Shown: positions 1,990-18,133 of the stretch, in pieces | Layout: every line of letters begins with the position of its first letter | Numbering within the stretch: the first letter of the stretch is position 1 | DNA from: Candidatus Cloacimonadota bacterium | GTDB taxonomy: Bacteria > Cloacimonadota > Cloacimonadia > JGIOTU-2 | DNA length: 64,000 nt | Direction of reading: 5' to 3' | Assembly (NCBI GenBank): GCA_016932035.1 | Contig: JAFGDR010000040.1 | Location: forward strand, 1-64,000 | Made by a program: the position numbers and the translations under genes | The notes under the pieces: model-generated | What the model saw: the letters and a program-made list of their open reading frames with translations, nothing else | Database searches by the model: none | Told to the model about the DNA's origin: nothing

Positions 1990-3316
1990 AAATATTTTAC
2001 TTTTACTTTTTGTTCTATGCTTACCGGGACTTCTTGTTGCAGAATTGAATGTTTTTTTCGACTGCAATAGATTTCCTGCTGCAGGGGAAAATACGAATTT
2101 TGAAATAACATACAAGGTTTTCGATTCGGACCTTGATTTTGCTGCAAGAGATAATGTTCTCGCTGCTCAGCTTCTTGTTGATTTCAATATATATAACGCT
2201 TCTGGACAGGAACTGTATCATAAAGATTATATTCGACAAATAAATGTAGATCTGGATAAATCCTCGATCTATCATGGGGAGTTTTTTATTGATAAGATCA
2301 AAGTAACCGTCACACCGGGACTCTATACATTCTCTGTTGAAATTGAAGATCGGGTCAGCTCAGAGAATATTCAGTGGGAGAAAACCCTGAACACCCTCGA
2401 TTTCTCACATATGAATCTCAGTGATATTGAGATAAGCTCATTTCATCAGTCAGATACCACTTCCAGCTTCATGGATTTTAAACGTGGTGATATTCTGTTT
2501 CTTGTAAATCCCAACCACCTCTTCGATCCATCAAAAAACGAAGGCTTTTCCTATTATTTTGATATTTACAAAAATCCGGAGGATGTTACATCACTTTTGG
2601 AAGGTCACTGGGTCGTCAGCGTTCTCGATAAAGATCACATAGAGAACTTTCATAAAGAAAAGGAGTTCACTTCTATCTCATCCATTAAGTCTTTCTGGGA
2701 TTGGATACCCATTTCACAATGGGAACAGGGAACATACACATTTTCTGTTCTACTCTACACCGAAGAGAATAAAGAAAAACCAATTGCTTCCCGTGAAGAA
2801 TTGATATTTATTCATGAAGATGTTGAGAGCATCTCAAAAACTGAAATCGACAAAGAGTATCGTTATGCGAAGTATTTTCTTACTAATTATGAAGAACAGC
2901 TTTTTAACAGTCTCGATGATGAGGGGCGTGTTGAATTCCTCAGACGTTTCTGGGAACAGAATGATCCCAATCCTAAAACTGAGCAGAATGAATATAAAGA
3001 AGAGATCATCCAGCGGGTTAATTACACAAACAGAAATTTCTCACATTACGGCGAAGGATGGAACACGGACAGGGGTAGAATTTATATTCGTTTGGGAAAA
3101 CCGGAAGAAGTGATAGATAAAAGCTACGAATACGACGCAAAACCCTATATTATCTGGAAATATTATCTCGGTGGAAAACGCATCTACGTTTTTGTTGATT
3201 TTACAAAACTGGGCAATTATAAACTTGTGTACTCGGAGAATGACGAGATGGAGTTCAGCGATCCAAACTGGGAAGATTATTTAGGACCATATTTTGATGA
3301 GAATGAGCTGCAGTGA
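1979..3316 (+). CDS. GWxTD domain-containing secreted protein
   Basis: The protein has 445 residues with an N-terminal signal peptide (hydrophobic segment at about 5-20), so it is probably exported to the periplasm or outer membrane. The C-terminal third carries the family signature: GWNTD at residues 360-364, followed by RGRIYIRLGKPEEV and a tyrosine/tryptophan-rich end. GWxTD proteins are found mainly in the FCB and Acidobacteria groups and have no established function. The preceding 270 residues look like beta-rich domains. The start ATG lies inside the end of dnaE and has a GGTGG-type ribosome site just upstream. It ends exactly one base before the stop of the convergent yraN-like gene, with no room for a terminator. 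Family assignment is firm; function is unknown. Confidence 0.88.
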   Translation: MNSKNILLLLFVLCLPGLLVAELNVFFDCNRFPAAGENTNFEITYKVFDSDLDFAARDNVLAAQLLVDFNIYNASGQELYHKDYIRQINVDLDKSSIYHGEFFIDKIKVTVTPGLYTFSVEIEDRVSSENIQWEKTLNTLDFSHMNLSDIEISSFHQSDTTSSFMDFKRGDILFLVNPNHLFDPSKNEGFSYYFDIYKNPEDVTSLLEGHWVVSVLDKDHIENFHKEKEFTSISSIKSFWDWIPISQWEQGTYTFSVLLYTEENKEKPIASREELIFIHEDVESISKTEIDKEYRYAKYFLTNYEEQLFNSLDDEGRVEFLRRFWEQNDPNPKTEQNEYKEEIIQRVNYTNRNFSHYGEGWNTDRGRIYIRLGKPEEVIDKSYEYDAKPYIIWKYYLGGKRIYVFVDFTKLGNYKLVYSENDEMEFSDPNWEDYLGPYFDENELQ

Positions 3317-3682
3317 TCAGTAATCTTCTCCAAGAAATGCATTCTCGATGTGGCGTAATATATAATCCTTTGCATTTTTATCATAATCAAGTGTAATGAT
3401 ATCGAACCGGATTGGCATATCAATTTCTTTTTTTGCAAGGTAATGGTAAGCAGTTTTTATGATTTTCTGCCTTTTGCTTTCCGTTACTGCATCTAATGGT
3501 TCTCCAAAGGTATGTGATCTTCGGGCTTTAACTTCTACCAGGACAAGTTCATCATTTTTGCTGCAGATAATATCTATCTCTCCATAGGGTGAATGGTAAT
3601 TGCGCTCGATGATTGCATATCCTTTACTCGTAAGATGTTTCGCTGCCTGGTCTTCTCCAAAAGTTGCAAGGTTGATTTTCAT
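3317..3682 (-). CDS. YraN/UPF0102 family endonuclease-like protein
   Basis: This is a 121-residue protein, the normal length for the YraN family. It has the PD-(D/E)xK nuclease pattern: Glu10 near the N terminus, GEID at 34-37, and VEVK at 49-52. It is a predicted nuclease of the Holliday-junction-resolvase-like fold with no clear substrate. It is one of the few minus-strand genes here, divergent from priA with a 40-nt gap and convergent with the GWxTD gene. It is conserved among bacteria and usually lies near housekeeping genes such as rnhB. Confidence 0.9.
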   Translation of the reverse strand: MKINLATFGEDQAAKHLTSKGYAIIERNYHSPYGEIDIICSKNDELVLVEVKARRSHTFGEPLDAVTESKRQKIIKTAYHYLAKKEIDMPIRFDIITLDYDKNAKDYILRHIENAFLGEDY

Positions 3683-3722
3683 GTGTTAAAAGTGCAATGA
3701 TAAAATTTTATGTAAATAAATT

Positions 3723-6104
3723 ATGAAAACCTATATCGAAGTTGCCCTGCCCATCAATGTTCAGGATACATACACCTATTCCTGTCCAGCTAAGCTTAAG
3801 CCTATGATAGGGAAGCGCGTAATTGTTGATTTTAATTACCGGATCCAGACTGGTGTAATCGTTGCTCTTTTGAAACAGCCCACAATCGATACAGGTAAGA
3901 TCAAAGAAGTTCTTGAAGTGATCGACAAAAAACCTCTTGTTAATCACGAACTTCTAACCTTCGCTCAATGGATCGGAAGCTACTATCATTGCCCGATCGG
4001 TCTTGTTCTCAAAGCGATGCTTCCCGCAGGGATAAATGTTAATACGATCCAGATGATCCTCCTCAAAAAGAACAAAACCAAAGATCAGAATTACCAGACA
4101 GTACTTGCACATATCGAACATTGCGGGGGACAATGTTCAATCGATGAGTTGAAAAAACTAAAGATTTCTCCACTTTTCAAAACACTCCTCGAAATGGAGG
4201 ATTCGGGATTGATCGAGATCGAGCGTCAATACAAGAGGATTATACAAAAGAAGATCGTCAATTGCATCAAACTCACAAACAAGTCCAATGAAGAAACGCT
4301 AACAGAAAAACAGCAAGCTCTACTTGATTTTTTCCATGAGCAATCCGATCCGATCTATATGGCAGATATTTCAAAACTTTTTTCATATAGTATCATCAAT
4401 AAGCTTAAAGAGAAGCAATTGATTGAGATTTATAAAAAAGAAATACATCCTGATATTTTTTCAAACATTGTATCGCACGCTCCTCCAATATATGAACTTA
4501 CAGATGAACAGGCAGAGGTCCTTCATGCTCTAGAAAACCAGATAGAGAAGGAAACCTTCAGCACTTTTCTCCTTCATGGCGTGACATCCAGCGGAAAAAC
4601 AGAAGTGTATATTCGAGCTATGAAACGAGTTCTTTCCCTTGGGAAAACAGCGATCATTCTCATTCCTGAAATATCATTAACTCCCCAGACTGTTGAACGT
4701 TTTTACTCGCACTTTGGAGATATCATAGCTGTACTTCATAGCAAGCTGAGTGACAGGGAACGGCTACATTATTGGAATCTCCTTAAAAATGGAGAGAAAA
4801 AGATTGCAATCGGACCGAGAAGTGCACTCTTCGCTCCATTGGAAGAAATCGGGCTTATTATCGTTGACGAGGAGCATGAAAATACTTATAAACAGCATGA
4901 GCGTCCACCGCTATACAATGCACGGGACATGGCTGTGCTCAGGGGAAAACTCAATGATGCGGTTGTGCTTCTTGGAACTGCGACACCCTATCTCGAGTCA
5001 TTCTATAATTCAGAGAAAGAGAAATACACGCTTCTCACGATGAAGAACCGGGTAAAGGATCAGATACTTCCGAAAATCACGATAGTCGATATGCGTCAGA
5101 AAGAGGATCATACGGAAATCCTCTCAAAAATCCTCAAGGACAAGGTCGAAGATCGAATCAAGAAAAAGGAACAGATCCTTCTTTTTCAAAACCGTAGAGG
5201 ATATGCTTCGTATGTGCAATGCGTTAAATGCGGACATGTTATTCAGTGCCGTGACTGCAACATCAGCATGACCTATCATTCCAGAAACAAAAAGATAAAA
5301 TGCCATTACTGCGGTTATGAAAGAGCTTTGCCCCGCACATGCCCAGAATGCGGAGGCTATATTTTTAATTTTGGTTCACCCGGAACAGAAAAGATTGAGC
5401 AAAATCTTCAGTTCCTTTTTCCAACTGCACGAATTGCCCGGCTTGATACAGACACAACATCAAAAAAGGATACATTTCAAAATGTGTTTAATCAGGTTAG
5501 AAATGGTTACATCGATATTTTGCTGGGGACACAGATGATAATCAAAGGACTGGATTTCCCGAATATTACACTTGTGGGAATAATCTCGGCAGATGTGAAT
5601 CTCAACCTTCCTGATTTTAGGGCATCTGAGCGAAATTTTCAGCATATTATCCAGGTGGCAGGACGTGCAGGCAGGAGCGAAAAAGAAGGGGAGGTCATCA
5701 TTCAGACCTTCAATCCAAAGCATTACAGCATCCAACTTGCACAGCGGCAAAATTTTCAGGATTTTTATGAACATGAATTACTCCTCAGAAAGGAACTCCA
5801 CTATCCTCCTTATACAAAACTTGCCCGAATCCTATTTTCACTCAACAACGAAAAGCAACTCCAGTCGATCATGAATAAGGTCAAGGAGAAGATCGCAACA
5901 TTTCCTCAAAAAAAATCATTAATTATCCTTAATCCAACACCTGCACCAATCAGTAAAATACGAAAACAATACCGTTATCACATTTTACTCAAAGCTGGAA
6001 ATCAACTAAGAATCACACAATTTCTTGATTGGTTTAACAAAAATATTCGTATCCCTAAGTATGTCAAAATACAAATAGACATCGACCCCATTTCACTTTT
6101 ATAG
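3723..6104 (+). CDS. priA: Primosomal protein N' (PriA helicase)
   Basis: PriA is a superfamily 2 DNA helicase that reloads the replisome at collapsed forks. At 793 residues it is full length. The N-terminal 3' DNA-binding and winged-helix regions occupy about 1-250. Walker A GVTSSGKT is at about 286-293 and the DEEH box at 382-385. The insert between the helicase lobes carries the zinc-binding cysteine pairs from Cys500 on (CVKCGH, CRDC, CHYCG, CPECGG). Helicase motifs V and VI are visible (GTQMIIKGLDFPNITLVG, QVAGRAGRS). It is divergently placed next to the yraN-like gene. Nothing is missing or unusual. Confidence 0.97.
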   Translation: MKTYIEVALPINVQDTYTYSCPAKLKPMIGKRVIVDFNYRIQTGVIVALLKQPTIDTGKIKEVLEVIDKKPLVNHELLTFAQWIGSYYHCPIGLVLKAMLPAGINVNTIQMILLKKNKTKDQNYQTVLAHIEHCGGQCSIDELKKLKISPLFKTLLEMEDSGLIEIERQYKRIIQKKIVNCIKLTNKSNEETLTEKQQALLDFFHEQSDPIYMADISKLFSYSIINKLKEKQLIEIYKKEIHPDIFSNIVSHAPPIYELTDEQAEVLHALENQIEKETFSTFLLHGVTSSGKTEVYIRAMKRVLSLGKTAIILIPEISLTPQTVERFYSHFGDIIAVLHSKLSDRERLHYWNLLKNGEKKIAIGPRSALFAPLEEIGLIIVDEEHENTYKQHERPPLYNARDMAVLRGKLNDAVVLLGTATPYLESFYNSEKEKYTLLTMKNRVKDQILPKITIVDMRQKEDHTEILSKILKDKVEDRIKKKEQILLFQNRRGYASYVQCVKCGHVIQCRDCNISMTYHSRNKKIKCHYCGYERALPRTCPECGGYIFNFGSPGTEKIEQNLQFLFPTARIARLDTDTTSKKDTFQNVFNQVRNGYIDILLGTQMIIKGLDFPNITLVGIISADVNLNLPDFRASERNFQHIIQVAGRAGRSEKEGEVIIQTFNPKHYSIQLAQRQNFQDFYEHELLLRKELHYPPYTKLARILFSLNNEKQLQSIMNKVKEKIATFPQKKSLIILNPTPAPISKIRKQYRYHILLKAGNQLRITQFLDWFNKNIRIPKYVKIQIDIDPISLL

Positions 6105-9503: not shown

Positions 9504-10493
9504 TTGGAAGTGAACATTCTCATTACCGGTATCACGGGCTTCATAGGCGGAGAGCTTTGTAAGACACTATTAATCGAAAAATCGAACAAAATTACAACTC
9601 TAATGCGTTTGAATACAGCAATTGAAAGATTTGTTTTCTTTAAAAAGAATAATGTAAATTGCATCGAAGGAGATATTGCTGATAGAGATTTTATTCATTC
9701 TGTTTTCAAAAAGAAATTCGATGTTGTCTATCATATCGCCGCAATACGTGGTGGCAGAGATTTTTCCAAAAAAGAATATTATCGCTCAAATGTAGATGCT
9801 GCAGTTAATATTGCTGAAGAATGTCTTGAACATAATGTAAAGATGATCTTCTGCAGTTCGGTAGGAGTATTTGGGGCAATTCCAAAAGAGCTACCTCCCA
9901 CCGAAAATACAGTTCGCCAACAAGACAACTATTATCATTACACCAAGATTGAAGCAGAGAAAAAACTCAAAGAATTAGTTCCACAAGGATTGAATCTCGT
10001 GATAATCCGACCATCAATAACATATGGCATCGGCGACTATGGTTTTCCATTTACATTGATAAAACTCATCGATAAAGGCATGATGCTCCTCCCATCAAAG
10101 GATATCATGATCAACATGGCTGATGTATCAACCCTTATCCAGGCATTCATTTTAGCGGGAACTGCAAAAATCAAATCCGGCAGTGCATATAATATCGCAG
10201 ACAGACATCCAGTTTCTCTCAAAGGATTAACTCATTTTATTAATCATGAACTTAAGAATTCGGACTATCCCAAGTGGAAAAAGTTACCCAATTTTCTTTC
10301 AAAATTAGGACTTATCATCTTCTCAAAACTGATGAAAAATGAGCTCTGGACTGCACGGATCGAACTCATCTCAAAAAGCTGGTTCTATGATGTTACTCCA
10401 GCAATGAAAGATTTAAAAATCATACCACATGACACCGTCCCGGCATTCTCCTATGTGATTGATTGGTATAAACAGATAAAGGAGGAAAACTGA
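9504..10493 (+). CDS. NAD-dependent epimerase/dehydratase (extended SDR)
   Basis: The 329 residues carry an N-terminal Rossmann fold ILITGITGFIGG and the catalytic SSVGVFG and YHYTK (YxxxK) motifs of extended short-chain dehydrogenases. Members act on nucleotide sugars, sterols or polyketide-like lipids. The substrate cannot be read from sequence, but a lipid-linked or sugar-headgroup role would suit the surrounding genes. The start is TTG 9504 or GTG 9510; neither has an ideal ribosome site. It shares one base with the following methyltransferase ATG (TGATGG). Confidence 0.85.
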   Translation: MEVNILITGITGFIGGELCKTLLIEKSNKITTLMRLNTAIERFVFFKKNNVNCIEGDIADRDFIHSVFKKKFDVVYHIAAIRGGRDFSKKEYYRSNVDAAVNIAEECLEHNVKMIFCSSVGVFGAIPKELPPTENTVRQQDNYYHYTKIEAEKKLKELVPQGLNLVIIRPSITYGIGDYGFPFTLIKLIDKGMMLLPSKDIMINMADVSTLIQAFILAGTAKIKSGSAYNIADRHPVSLKGLTHFINHELKNSDYPKWKKLPNFLSKLGLIIFSKLMKNELWTARIELISKSWFYDVTPAMKDLKIIPHDTVPAFSYVIDWYKQIKEEN

Positions 10494-11356
10494 TGGCTAT
10501 TCCGATCCTCAAAACATGGAAAGAGTATTTTATAGATAAACCCGACGAGGGACTTGGTTCAAGTTATGAGCGAATTGTATTGAATAATAAATTAGATGAG
10601 GTAATTCACAATTACCAATGTCATAGAATACTCGAAGTTCCCACCTTTGGCTTCACTGGAACGTCCGGGATAAATTCAATGTATCTGGCAAAAAAGGGAA
10701 AAGAAGTCTATCTCATTGATAACAACAAAGAACGGATCGAACTGGTAAGAAGTGTCTGGAATAGAGTTGGAATACATGCTGATTTTTTATTCCAGGAAAA
10801 TTTTGAAAAGCTGGGATTTCTGGACAAAACCTTCGATCTTACGTGGAATTTTTCTGCTCTATGGTTTGTAAATGATCTTGAACAGTTTCTTGGAGGACTA
10901 ACCCGTGTAACCAAAAAAGTGATTTTTATCTGTGTGCCAAACAGGTCCGGTTTTGGATATCTGCAGCAAAAATACTCATCGCTTCATGAGCTTAAAAAAC
11001 ACCTGAAAGAGAAGAATATAATTCCAAAAAATATAATTTCTATCATGAAAAAACTCAATTGGAAGCTTGTTGAAAGAAATTATATTGATGCCCCGCCATG
11101 GCCTGATATAGGCATGAATAAAGAAAAATTTCTTGCATCATTACACTTGGGTTTCCTGCTAAAAAAGAAAGACAAATCAGAAGGTGATAAACTCTGTATT
11201 CTGGATTACTATGCAGGAAGAGATCCTGAATTTTCAGAACAAATGATGAAATATTACTGGTTTGAAAAGATTGCCCCTAAATTCATAAAATTTTTCTGGG
11301 CTCATCATAAATTCATGCTTTTTGTAGATGCGTCTAAAGAGACTATAAACAAATAA
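10493..11356 (+). CDS. Class I SAM-dependent methyltransferase-like protein
   Basis: The 287 residues include a methyltransferase core. Motif I is atypical (ILEVPTFGFTGTSG, with extra residues before the glycine turn), followed by an acidic strand end (VYLIDNNKERIE) and FDLTWNFSALWFV at the motif IV position. The C-terminal 120 residues contain amphipathic aromatic helices (KIAPKFIKFFWAHHKFMLF) that could contact the membrane. AGGAGG precedes the ATG. It is translationally linked to the epimerase before it and the flippase-like gene after it. A lipid or lipid-headgroup substrate is a guess from context only. Confidence 0.75.
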   Translation: MAIPILKTWKEYFIDKPDEGLGSSYERIVLNNKLDEVIHNYQCHRILEVPTFGFTGTSGINSMYLAKKGKEVYLIDNNKERIELVRSVWNRVGIHADFLFQENFEKLGFLDKTFDLTWNFSALWFVNDLEQFLGGLTRVTKKVIFICVPNRSGFGYLQQKYSSLHELKKHLKEKNIIPKNIISIMKKLNWKLVERNYIDAPPWPDIGMNKEKFLASLHLGFLLKKKDKSEGDKLCILDYYAGRDPEFSEQMMKYYWFEKIAPKFIKFFWAHHKFMLFVDASKETINK

Positions 11357-12414: not shown

Positions 12415-13524
12415 ATGAAAAATTTAGTTTTTTATGTCTTCCTGGGTATTTTGCTGACGAATGTGTCCCTTTTCGCTCAGGACATCTCCTTCACCGCGAA
12501 AGACAACCCTAACGATGATGGTGGAGCGATTATCCTGGAATGGGATGTTCCCCTTACCTATAATGAAATGGTAATTACCCGTAGTACGGATAATGAGAAT
12601 TTTATCGAGATCGCCGTGGTAACTCCTCTACTCAAAACCTACATCGATGATGAAAATATCGAGGACGGGCAGGAGTATTTCTATAGACTATCCCTTGTTG
12701 ATGCTGATGGAGAGAAGCAAAGTTTTGAAACGAATGCTCTATCATCTGCAGAGTGGTTCAACACGGACAAAATTTCTCTATTAATCATGGCAGTCCTTCT
12801 TGGAACAGCGATCACCTATTACATTTTTTCTGCACGAAAAGGAAAGCGGCTTTATATCAGAAAGATCAGCGGACTGGATACGATTGAAGAAGCGGTCGGT
12901 CGAGCCACGGAAATGGGCAAGCCACTTTTGTTTGTTCCAGGTATTATGGACCTCGATGATATGCAGACAATTGCAGGATTGAACATTCTCGGTCATCTCG
13001 CCCAGAAAGTTGCACAATACGATTCTACGATCCACGTGCCTGTATGCCGCTCGATGGTTCTTTCTACTGCAAAAGAGATCGTGAAAGAATCCTACCTTCG
13101 TGCCGGCAGACCCGATGCATTCAGACCGGACTCAGTATTCTATCTTACTGATGACCAGTTTGGATATGTTGCAGGTGTGGACGGTATCATCCTTCGCGAA
13201 AAACCTGCTGCAACTTTCTATCTTGGTGCATTTTACGCTGAATCACTTATTCTTGCAGAGACCGGTTTTGAGAGCGGTGCTATCCAGATCGCTGGTACTG
13301 CTATGCCCACCCAGATACCCTTCTTCGTAGCTGCCTGCGATTATACCTTAATAGGTGAAGAGCTTTTCGCTGCATCAGCATACCTTTCAAACGAACCAAA
13401 TCAGCTTGGTAGTCTTAAAGGTCAGGATGTTGGTAAGGCGATCATTATCATAACCCTTCTTGTCGGCGTCATACTCGAAATGTGCGGTGTACATTTCCTC
13501 AAAGACTTTCTGGCAACCCACTAA
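12415..13524 (+). CDS. DUF6754-like membrane protein with N-terminal fibronectin III domain
   Basis: The protein has 369 residues: a signal peptide at 1-21, a fibronectin type III-like domain at about 25-105 (IILEWDVPLTYNEMVITRS, YFYRLSLVDADG), one membrane helix at about 121-140, a cytosolic domain, and a C-terminal hydrophobic segment at about 340-362. The long middle part (KPLLFVPGIMDLDDMQTIAG, PVCRSMVLSTAKEIVKESY) looks like the DUF6754 family; I recall this from family likeness and have not searched it. The function is unknown. It is the first of four consecutive membrane-protein genes with 10-20 nt spacing or overlap, which should form one complex or pathway. Confidence 0.7.
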   Translation: MKNLVFYVFLGILLTNVSLFAQDISFTAKDNPNDDGGAIILEWDVPLTYNEMVITRSTDNENFIEIAVVTPLLKTYIDDENIEDGQEYFYRLSLVDADGEKQSFETNALSSAEWFNTDKISLLIMAVLLGTAITYYIFSARKGKRLYIRKISGLDTIEEAVGRATEMGKPLLFVPGIMDLDDMQTIAGLNILGHLAQKVAQYDSTIHVPVCRSMVLSTAKEIVKESYLRAGRPDAFRPDSVFYLTDDQFGYVAGVDGIILREKPAATFYLGAFYAESLILAETGFESGAIQIAGTAMPTQIPFFVAACDYTLIGEELFAASAYLSNEPNQLGSLKGQDVGKAIIIITLLVGVILEMCGVHFLKDFLATH

Positions 13525-13540
13525 CATATAAAGAGGACAC

Positions 13541-14236
13541 ATGAGACGACAAATTCCAATGATCATCACCTTTTTTGTTGGTGCTCTTATTATCGTATCA
13601 GAATTTATTCCCCATAGACCCTTTGGTAATCTTTCAACCAGTCTGGAAGGATGGTTTTTGATTATATCCGGATTTGCGATCATACTCGGGCAGCTGAGTT
13701 TGTTCAAAGTAAATATCATAAAGATCCACCGCAAAGCACCGAACTGGCCCTACTTCATTATTGCCCTTGTGAGTTTTTCTATTATGGTCATTTGCGGTAT
13801 CCTCTGGGGAACGCAACAGCAGCCGGGACTTCTTCAGACCAGCGATAAAATGCTGAATTTCTTCGGTATGAAGCCCTTTGACTACATCTTCAAATACATG
13901 TTCGAAAATCTCTCTGCTACGATGTTCTCGCTGCTTGCATTCTTCATGGCATCTGCATCCTACAGGGCATTTCGTGCACGAAGCCCGGAATCTACTTTGC
14001 TTTTGATAGCAGCAGTCCTTGTCATGCTTGGCAGAACAACGATAGGCAGCACCCTGACGGGCTGGATACCAGAATCTCTTGGATTTTTGCACTTGCCGAA
14101 TATTGCATCATTTATCATGAAATATCCGAACACTGCCGGTCAGCGAGCCATTATGATTTGCGCAGGTCTTGGGGTGATCGGCAGCTCTCTGCGGATCATA
14201 CTCGGGATCGAGCGTTCATATTTAGGGGGTAAATAA
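13541..14236 (+). CDS. Hypothetical polytopic membrane protein of the DUF6754 operon
   Basis: This 231-residue protein has about six predicted membrane helices (for example QIPMIITFFVGALIIVSEF, PYFIIALVSFSIMVICGIL, SATMFSLLAFFMASASY, LLLIAAVLVMLG). I recognise no enzymatic motif. A good GAGGA ribosome site precedes ATG 13541. Its stop and the next ATG share one base (TAATG). Its job is unknown; the spacing says it is made with the genes on both sides. Confidence 0.7.
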   Translation: MRRQIPMIITFFVGALIIVSEFIPHRPFGNLSTSLEGWFLIISGFAIILGQLSLFKVNIIKIHRKAPNWPYFIIALVSFSIMVICGILWGTQQQPGLLQTSDKMLNFFGMKPFDYIFKYMFENLSATMFSLLAFFMASASYRAFRARSPESTLLLIAAVLVMLGRTTIGSTLTGWIPESLGFLHLPNIASFIMKYPNTAGQRAIMICAGLGVIGSSLRIILGIERSYLGGK

Positions 14237-15081
14237 TGAAAATTTTTGAGAAATTTCTCCATATCGACAGACGAATTATTTTCCTGCTTATCCTCCTCGG
14301 CGTAGCCATTCCTCTTATCTGGACTCTCGGCTTCAATCTCGAAGTAACAGAAAACGTCCAAAGCGTTTACGATCTTCTCCAAAATCTCGAACCAGGTACA
14401 CGAATCCTTATCTCCTTCGATTATGACCCCTCGACAAAACCGGAGATCCAACCCATGGCAATCTCACTGATGCAGCAGGCATTCACACTTCGGCTCAGGA
14501 TCATTGCAACCGCACTCTGGCCTATGGGAGTTCAGATGTGCAACGAGGCGTATGAAACAGTTAGCGCTGAATATCCTGATGTAAAATATGGTATCGATTT
14601 TATTAATCTCGGCTACAAGTCCGGCGGCATGGTCACGATCAATCACATGGCAAAAGATTTTCGGAGCACCTTCCCTGCTGATGCAGGGGGAAATCCGATC
14701 GACGAATTCCCCATCATGAAGGGAATAAAAAATTTCGATAAGATCGGCTGCATGATCTCCCTTTCGGCTGGTGATCCGGGGTTGAAGCAATGGGTTATGA
14801 TCGTTCATGATACCTTTGGAAAACCGGTAGCCGGCGGCACTACTGCAGTACAGGCACCCACAATGCTGCCGTATGTGAATGAACAGCAGCAACTCGTTGG
14901 ATTACTTGGCGGATTAAAAGGTGCAGCAGAATATGAACTTCTTATAAACAAGCCCGGCTTTGCAACCAAAGGAATGGATGCGCAGTCCGTTGCACATCTC
15001 ATCATCATCCTGTTCATCCTGATCGGCAATATCGGCTATTTTGCCACCAGGAAACAAAAACCAAAACTGGAAGCTAAGTAG
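14236..15081 (+). CDS. Hypothetical bitopic membrane protein of the DUF6754 operon
   Basis: The 281 residues have one membrane helix at each end (IIFLLILLGVAIPLIWTLGF at about 14-33; LIIILFILIGNIGYFA at about 254-269) and a soluble domain between them. That domain has alternating strands and helices (GTRILISFDYDPST, RLRIIATALWPMGVQMC, KYGIDFINLGYKSGG, GCMISLSAGDPGLKQWVM), reminiscent of a periplasmic binding-protein-like alpha/beta fold, but I cannot name the family. It is an essential part of the four-gene block; the preceding stop overlaps its ATG. Confidence 0.7.
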   Translation: MKIFEKFLHIDRRIIFLLILLGVAIPLIWTLGFNLEVTENVQSVYDLLQNLEPGTRILISFDYDPSTKPEIQPMAISLMQQAFTLRLRIIATALWPMGVQMCNEAYETVSAEYPDVKYGIDFINLGYKSGGMVTINHMAKDFRSTFPADAGGNPIDEFPIMKGIKNFDKIGCMISLSAGDPGLKQWVMIVHDTFGKPVAGGTTAVQAPTMLPYVNEQQQLVGLLGGLKGAAEYELLINKPGFATKGMDAQSVAHLIIILFILIGNIGYFATRKQKPKLEAK

Positions 15082-15090
15082 GAGGACATC

Positions 15091-15732
15091 ATGGCAATAC
15101 TTATGGACAGAATCGGTATTTGGATCGGCGCTTTTCTTACCTTTGCTATCTTCAGCTTTTTATATAAGGACAATCCGTTTTATAAGATAGCGGAGCAGAT
15201 CTTCATCGGGATCTCTGCCGGTTATTGGTTTATATATACAATCTATAACATTCTCATGCCCAATCTTTTTATACCGGTTACGACAGATTTCACGCATAAT
15301 TTCATACTCCTCATTCCTGCATTTCTTGGTATTCTCATGCTCTGCCGTTTGATACCCACTATCGATTGGGTGAGTAGATATGCACTTGCTGTGGTTGTCG
15401 GAACAACTGCGGGTCTTTTCTTTAAGCGCTATCTCCAATCCGATGTGCTGAACCAGTTGACTGCAACCATGCTTAATCCCTTTGCTTCGAGCAACGCTGC
15501 GCAAATTATTGGTGAACTCATTTTGATAATCGGCACGATAACAGGTATCGTGTATTTCTTCTTCAGCAAAAAGCATGAAGGTGCGTTCGGGACAACTGCA
15601 CGGGTCGGTATTTACTTTCTTATGATAAGTTTCGGTGCTGCGTTCGGTTATACGGTGATGGCGCGTATCTCGCTTCTTATCGGACGTCTCAACTTCCTGC
15701 TTGGAGATTGGCTGGGAATTATTAAGCCGTAA
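15091..15732 (+). CDS. Hypothetical polytopic membrane protein of the DUF6754 operon
   Basis: The last of the four clustered membrane proteins has 213 residues with about six helices (IGAFLTFAIFSFLY, YWFIYTIYNILM, FILLIPAFLGILMLCRLI, IIGELILIIGTITGIVYFFF and others). A strong AGGAGG site lies 7 nt before the ATG. Its last codons (AAGCCG) are part of an inverted repeat with the following intergenic region. No family was recognised. Confidence 0.68.
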   Translation: MAILMDRIGIWIGAFLTFAIFSFLYKDNPFYKIAEQIFIGISAGYWFIYTIYNILMPNLFIPVTTDFTHNFILLIPAFLGILMLCRLIPTIDWVSRYALAVVVGTTAGLFFKRYLQSDVLNQLTATMLNPFASSNAAQIIGELILIIGTITGIVYFFFSKKHEGAFGTTARVGIYFLMISFGAAFGYTVMARISLLIGRLNFLLGDWLGIIKP

Positions 15733-17011: not shown

Positions 17012-18133
17012 ATGAATTTAAACAGGAAAAAATTTATCACTGTAATTCTGGGATTTATGATTTTGTGTGGAAACATTTCAGTACCTGCTTTTGCATGCAC
17101 GGGAATTAGATTGACCGCAAACGATAAGGGAGTTGTATATGGTCGTACGATGGAGTGGGGAAAATTTGATTTGCAGTCACAAATCATGATCGTTCCAAAG
17201 GGTTATTTGTTCAAAGGTCTCACTCCAGACGGTAATAATGGTAAAAAGTGGAGTGCAAAGTATGGTTTCGTGGGACTTGATATGATGGGACAAAATTTTA
17301 TTGCAGACGGCATGAATGAAAAAGGTTTAGTTGCAGGATTATTCTATCATAATGGGTTTGCAAGCTATCCAACTTACAATAAAGACATGGCAGATATTAC
17401 TATCACAGCGGTGGACGTGACGAATTATATTCTTTCTCTATTTGCAACAATTGATGAAGTTCGTCAGGGAATGGAAAAAGTTCGAGTTGTTGCTGTTATT
17501 CAAGAGGAACTTGGTATTCCTATGTACGCTCATTGGATGGTTACGGATCCTGAAGGTAATTCCATAACTATCGAGTTCTGTGATGGTAACATGAAAATCT
17601 TTGATAATCCTCTCGGGGTAATTACAAATGATCCTACGTATGATTGGCATATGATGAATTTGCGAAATTATATCAACCTATCTCCAGTTTCATTCCCTAA
17701 TAAAAAAATTAATGATCTTGATTTTGCTCCGATGGGTGCAGGAAGCGGCATGATCGGCTTGCCTGGTGATAATACACCTCCTTCACGATTTGTACGTGCT
17801 GTTGCCTGGACGCAAACTGCCAGACCTACCGAAACATCAGAAGAAACAGTGTACGAAATATTTAGAATACTTGATAATTTTAATTTACCACTTGGTGCTG
17901 CAGAAGGTTCTGATAAGTCGAGTAACCTGCAAGGTATGCGCAGTTCAACGATTTGGACAACAGCGTGGGATCTATCAAACCATGTTCTCAATTATCATAC
18001 CCAGCATAATAGGCGGGTCCGAGCACTATTTCTTCACAAAATAGACTTCTCGGATATTGGAGATAGCATCATTCGCATTCCTCTTGATTATAACAAAAAA
18101 CAGGATATCCAAGATATTACTCCAACAAAATAG
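17012..18133 (+). CDS. Secreted linear-amide C-N hydrolase (choloylglycine hydrolase / penicillin V acylase family)
   Basis: This Ntn hydrolase has 373 residues. The signal peptide ends at Ala28, so Cys29 (FACTGIRLT) would become the N-terminal nucleophile after cleavage, as the family requires. Further family features are VYGRTMEWG, GMNEKGL, the NDPTYDWH segment and a late RTV-like core region. Members hydrolyse conjugated bile salts, penicillin V or N-acyl homoserine lactones. Substrate cannot be assigned, and a non-gut lifestyle would point to amide-linked lipids or signals. The gene stands alone, with its own TTGAC box and a strong AAGGAG site. Confidence 0.9.
   Translation: MNLNRKKFITVILGFMILCGNISVPAFACTGIRLTANDKGVVYGRTMEWGKFDLQSQIMIVPKGYLFKGLTPDGNNGKKWSAKYGFVGLDMMGQNFIADGMNEKGLVAGLFYHNGFASYPTYNKDMADITITAVDVTNYILSLFATIDEVRQGMEKVRVVAVIQEELGIPMYAHWMVTDPEGNSITIEFCDGNMKIFDNPLGVITNDPTYDWHMMNLRNYINLSPVSFPNKKINDLDFAPMGAGSGMIGLPGDNTPPSRFVRAVAWTQTARPTETSEETVYEIFRILDNFNLPLGAAEGSDKSSNLQGMRSSTIWTTAWDLSNHVLNYHTQHNRRVRALFLHKIDFSDIGDSIIRIPLDYNKKQDIQDITPTK

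Follow-up and report, generated by a model that had tools for sequence, protein, structure and literature searches.

A conserved four-gene membrane cassette of Cloacimonadota and its predicted coupling to a GlmL-like ATPase

Four membrane-protein genes stand head to tail on the same strand of the stretch of Candidatus Cloacimonadota DNA analysed here (64,000 nucleotides; hereafter the window), separated by gaps of 16, -1 and 9 nt (Table 1). They are labelled g1 to g4 in their order from 12415 to 15732. A first-pass annotation, made from the letters alone, had described four consecutive membrane genes spaced by -1 to 16 nt, and the coordinates and gaps of the open reading frames agree with this. 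The conserved cassette is bounded by g1 and g4, since the genes on either side are not conserved alongside it. Upstream, the LPG_synthase_TM-like gene is encoded on the other strand in congeners (L034, L037, L060); downstream, the MoxR gene was found only in loci L033, L036 and L066, so that both were rejected as members. A promoter scan gave no excess over shuffles, and the sites predicted by a terminator scan fall mostly within genes and are uninformative. Further along the window, the product of positions 17012-18133 is a member of the choloylglycine-hydrolase family (PF02275, 232 bits). It has an apparent signal peptide and scores under the equivalog cut-offs for bile-salt hydrolase and penicillin V amidase.

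Table 1. Genes of the membrane cassette in the window and the predicted features of their products.
Gene	Coordinates	Strand	Length	Predicted features
g1	12415..13524	+	369 aa	signal peptide, FN3, TM, DUF6754, C-terminal TM
g2	13541..14236	+	231 aa	six TM, N-in/C-in
g3	14236..15081	+	281 aa	TM, extracytoplasmic alpha/beta (Rossmann-like) domain, TM
g4	15091..15732	+	213 aa	six TM

The first protein, g1, had been called DUF6754-like, and its match to that family (PF20539) reaches 411 bits against a cut-off of 27 and covers profile positions 2-256 of 257. The fibronectin III (FN3) domain proposed for the same protein lies beyond Pfam detection, no FN3 profile being matched, and is recovered by structure instead: Foldseek gives a probability of 1.00 to many FN3 structures (e.g., 3mpc, 1oww, 7jgu). 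Hydropathy over alignments of 63 and 8 sequences places transmembrane (TM) helices at about residues 120-138 and 343-361, in addition to the signal peptide. Because the stretch ARKGKRLYIRK directly follows the first of these helices, the positive-inside rule assigns the DUF6754 domain to the cytosol, and by the same rule the FN3 domain of g1 and the alpha/beta domain of g3 are predicted to lie outside. The size of the g1 ectodomain differs between modules, with next to nothing at one extreme and about 800 residues at the other. Near-invariant charged residues are found at R149, R261, E276, E282, E316 and D338, and C308 is the only conserved cysteine in the invariant lists of g1-g4 and of fa, a soluble partner described below. 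The DUF6754 half of the g1 structure model reached a pLDDT of only 30-40 because just eight sequences were usable, and no fold is claimed for it.

For the remaining proteins the picture comes mainly from profile hydropathy. Both g2 (46 homologues aligned) and g4 (55 homologues) have six TM segments, as the first-pass annotation had proposed; its term "bitopic" for g1 and g3 needs a slight correction, as each has two TM segments. A positive-inside bias accompanies the helices of g2, which has the conserved C-terminal motif GIERSYLGG. The orientation of g4, with the consensus motifs SFLYKDNPFYKFAEH and FGASFGYTVMARISLLIGR, is ambiguous. In g3, TM segments at about residues 14-32 and 251-269 flank the alpha/beta domain, and the second carries conserved Q/S/H/N residues in an alignment of 58 homologues. 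The AF2 model of g3 (mean pLDDT 68.5, pTM 0.65) gave only generic, partial Rossmann-like matches in the PDB, none at E<=0.001. Conserved polar residues lie within or beside TM segments at Q250, H254 and N265 of g3 and at N28, E35, R192 and R199 of g4. No Pfam or NCBIfam family above cut-off, no PADLOC family and no PDB sequence match was found for g2, g3 or g4, in line with the earlier statement that the four have no known function. A known transporter, channel or secretion system was likewise considered for all four and set aside, as none has a significant Pfam, NCBIfam or PDB profile match and the profile searches place none of them among known transporters. Nor do the proteins appear to be duplicates of one another, with hhalign probabilities of 2% for g1/g3 and 1% for g2/g4.

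Gene neighbourhoods were read from the sequence stretches around each locus. The order g1-g2-g3-g4 is kept in the 103 intact cassettes recovered, which come from dozens of bacterial families, a recurrence well beyond what chance would give. Of 125 Cloacimonadota genomes, 122 have DUF6754. In a second phylum, the one around a Zixibacteria record, every one of the 133 genomes has it, mostly in three to six copies; many of these copies lie about 3.5 kb apart, as would be expected for tandem cassettes. Among 262 other bacterial genomes, g1 was detected in 69, from 54 families, and g4 in 71, of which 68 also have g1 (72 genomes have either). A 0.9-Mb genome that is 98% complete (G454) still has the system, and none of the control model genomes has it. 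Exceptions to the order are a solo g1 (L106), a g1 accompanied by fa with g2-g4 not adjacent (L111) and a locus with no recognised g4 (L132), and in several Cloacimonadota loci a third, long g1 follows a second cassette. At L151:3263-8237, four g3-like genes surround a single g1, g2 and g4, an expansion of the alpha/beta subunit alone. The window's genome itself has a second complete cassette on another contig (G000:C23:54987-60001), whose g1 is of the long form (934 aa). It is flanked by metallopeptidase-like (M23), isopropylmalate-dehydratase small-subunit-like and ApbE-like genes, all named by eye (L003, which is G000:C23, at 3120-4346, 4435-4959 and 10045-11097).

The four genes also diverge together. 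Distance-matrix correlations are 0.78-0.83 for all six gene pairs, and they fall to means of 0.63-0.69 when paralogous cassettes are exchanged within 21 multi-cassette genomes or loci; for each of the six pairs, none of 1000 swaps reached the observed correlation. As swapping always lowered the correlation, g1-g4 can be said to evolve as one unit. A mobile element or anti-phage defence system was considered as well and rejected: PADLOC gave no match, g1 is unmatched in phage and plasmid collections, and the near-universal presence within two phyla contradicts the patchy distribution of defence systems.

Which soluble proteins accompany this unit became evident from clustering the neighbours of distant loci. 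One recurrent group dominates, upstream on the same strand, and consists of two families, fb and fa. The commonest full string is fd-fc-fb-fa-g1-g2-g3-g4, complete or nearly so in many distant loci of many phyla. About 600 aa long, fb belongs to the MutL/GlmL-like family of ASKHA ATPases (PF13941, 420-434 bits), with the ASKHA motifs DCGSTTTKAI and VDIGGATTDVFS conserved. The fa protein (about 375 aa) consists of a barrel-sandwich domain, a conserved middle domain and a KOW-like C-terminal region weakly similar to Spt5/NusG KOW. The two remaining families are smaller: fc, which precedes fb, has some 75 conserved residues, and fd, of about 150 aa, has a soluble part after its hydrophobic N-terminal stretch. 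In three genomes (G515, G269, G053) the fb frame carries one in-frame stop codon, perhaps through sequencing error or gene decay.

Outside Cloacimonadota, fa is present in 64 of the 262 genomes, all of which have g1, and in none of the 193 genomes without g1 (Fisher p about 1e-55, a value that ignores phylogeny and comes from a sample with mostly one or two genomes per family). The long type of fb occurs in 60 of the 262 genomes, 59 with g1 and the remaining one with g4. Eight genomes with g1 or g4 have no detected fa or fb (G287, G315, G334, G474, G512, G344, G350, G488), perhaps through incompleteness or divergence. Often fa and fb lie on a different contig or elsewhere in the genome, and the window's genome is a case in point, where fc, fb and fa form an operon at C23:72685-76089, 13 kb past the second cassette. 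In the single-contig Cloacimonadota genome G001 (2,246,820 bases) a cassette is found near 1385280-1388602, and fb and fa are paired at 684080-687064. A divergent fusion of fb and fa (967 aa) is encoded in the window's genome at C23:30984-33887 (L145:4985-7888), and another, with a zinc ribbon, at L048:2706-5879; both are distinct from the standard genes for fb and fa. Such fusions support fb and fa acting together. Copy numbers differ between the two halves: where both are present (64 genomes), the average is 1.9 copies for g1 and 1.1 for fa, and 27 of the 32 genomes having several g1 genes plus fa have a single fa. It therefore seems that a single cytosolic unit is shared by several membrane modules.

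Taken at the level of sequence, g1-g4 are probably the membrane-embedded module of a conserved, multi-subunit, ATP-driven envelope system, fd-fc-fb-fa-g1-g2-g3-g4. The first-pass annotation had read the four proteins as one envelope complex. Their order, co-occurrence and co-divergence uphold a conserved unit, and the four products would physically form one complex; the reading was incomplete in that g1-g4 are only the membrane half of a system of seven to eight genes. As its motifs and family suggest, fb would hydrolyse ATP in the cytosol, with fa as the adaptor that couples it to the strongly conserved cytosolic DUF6754 face of g1. The resulting conformational change would be passed on to the polytopic subunits (g2, g4) and to the parts outside the cytoplasm, namely the alpha/beta domain of g3 and the ectodomain of g1. 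One soluble fb-fa unit would serve the several alternative membrane cassettes of a cell, and specificity would be set by the variable, FN3-bearing ectodomain of g1. The output may be the movement of a substrate across the inner membrane or its extraction from it. Translocation is the first guess given the conserved polar residues within and beside the TM segments of g3 and g4, and it stays a tentative guess because no substrate-binding or channel family was recognised in g1-g4; the rest of the model is independent of what the output is.

Other readings of the same genes have to be weighed against this one. The similarity of fb to PF13941 MutL (420 bits), together with matches under cut-off to GlmL-family NCBIfam models, raises the idea of a GlmL-like reactivase of a cobalamin mutase, with the membrane proteins belonging to B12-dependent amino-acid or propionate metabolism (e.g., cobamide handling). 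Methylmalonyl-CoA mutase is indeed found in 19 of 24 tested system-bearing genomes, and the second cassette of the window's genome lies about 5 kb from mutase genes (C23:48504-50435), which were identified by mutase and B12-binding profile matches. However, fb scores below every GlmL-family cut-off (163 against 204, 216.9 against 475 and 199.3 against 600 bits), and PF01642, the family by which mutases were sought here and outside which the glutamate mutase and aminomutase families fall, is missing from five of the 24, two of them scored 100% complete (G261, G386). In addition, G408 has no B12-binding domain at the Pfam cut-off, and mutase genes were not seen recurring beside cassettes. With all GlmL cut-offs missed and five genomes lacking methylmalonyl-CoA mutase, the one mutase family surveyed, such a role seems improbable. 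Just as fb recalls GlmL, fa recalls subunits of Rnf and Nqr, in the sub-threshold similarity of its sequence to RnfC_N (E 7e-5 to 0.03) and NQRA_N. A redox complex that translocates ions, a distant analogue of Rnf/Nqr with fa in the role of RnfC/NqrA, would also fit a subunit pattern resembling that of Rnf, namely a pair of six-TM proteins and a further protein with an extracytoplasmic domain, and the ApbE-like gene after the second cassette of the window's genome. Yet the best score of fa against RnfC_N (23.1 bits, for the fusion form) falls short of the cut-off of 25.6, no RnfA/D/E/G-type or Nqr membrane-subunit family in Pfam or NCBIfam was matched by g1-g4, and an ApbE neighbour is seen in just four long-type Cloacimonadota loci. 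Rnf has no place for an ASKHA ATPase, and the invariant lists of fa and g1-g4 hold no conserved cysteine cluster, C308 of g1 standing alone. Since neither the Rnf membrane subunits nor the metal ligands were found, we regard a redox pump of this kind as unlikely.

The nucleotide-binding fold of fb could also serve as a switch and not as a motor. On this reading fb would be a nucleotide-switched scaffold of the FtsA or PilM kind, within a scaffolding or signalling complex that works in envelope assembly or division. This would agree with the weak matches (E 0.007 to 1) of fb to the profiles MreB-like_C and FtsA, with near-universality in two phyla and retention in the 0.9-Mb genome, as for a core envelope function, and with variable FN3 ectodomains suited to binding envelope polymers. 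These FtsA and MreB-like matches are far under cut-off, however, and the conserved residues in or near the TM segments of g3 and g4 suggest more than scaffolding, so that we consider this reading rather unlikely. Finally, the four might be independent membrane genes that merely travel together. The solo g1 genes (L106, and the third g1 after a second cassette in several Cloacimonadota) and the extra g3 copies of L151 would fit, but the invariant order, the co-divergence and the co-occurrence (as of g1 with g4 across genomes) contradict independence, which is strongly disfavoured and scarcely credible. An envelope system with g1-g4 as its membrane module remains the preferred reading.

How this system relates to what has been described is best seen from its parts. 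DUF6754 (PF20539), of which g1 is a full-strength member, is given by Pfam only as a domain of unknown function, and its partners g2-g4 and fa have no model. The ASKHA core of fb is that of GlmL/MutL, the glutamate mutase accessory ATPase (PF13941; NF040745, TIGR01319). In contrast to GlmL, fb has an extra C-terminal domain, scores below the subfamily and equivalog cut-offs and has its linkage with a membrane cassette instead of mutase genes. The barrel-sandwich domain of fa is similar, at sub-threshold level, to the N-terminal barrel-sandwich hybrid domain of RnfC/NqrA, but the Fe-S or NADH module of those proteins is absent and its place is taken by the middle domain and the weakly KOW-like C-terminal region. 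No open-access paper in PubMed Central, to which the search was confined with subscription journals outside it, names DUF6754, PF20539 or PF13941, and none was found in the open literature searched that describes GlmL-like proteins with membrane partners. DUF6754 and MutL are already-named families; no description of the cassette, of fa, fc, fd and g2-g4 or of the whole system seems to exist in the open literature. No membrane system of such a composition is known, and fold-level kinship with a known system may exist, the DUF6754 domain, g2, g4 and fa being the parts with no usable structure model. With confidence that stops somewhat short of even, we propose an undescribed class of bacterial membrane machine, driven by a single GlmL-type ASKHA ATPase that, paired with its adaptor in the cytosol, serves several interchangeable membrane modules of four proteins each; it would be core to at least two phyla and is found in about a quarter of the other bacterial genomes sampled.

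Absence from the control model genomes may explain why a system of this breadth was missed, and fb is likely annotated as a mutase accessory protein, which would mislead. The set of six to eight genes has no assigned function and no solved homologue. Given the conserved gene order, the near-universal presence in two phyla, the retention in a 0.9-Mb genome and the occurrence in 54 further families, it looks like a core cell function, and naming the partners, above all the GlmL-like ATPase fb, makes that function directly testable.
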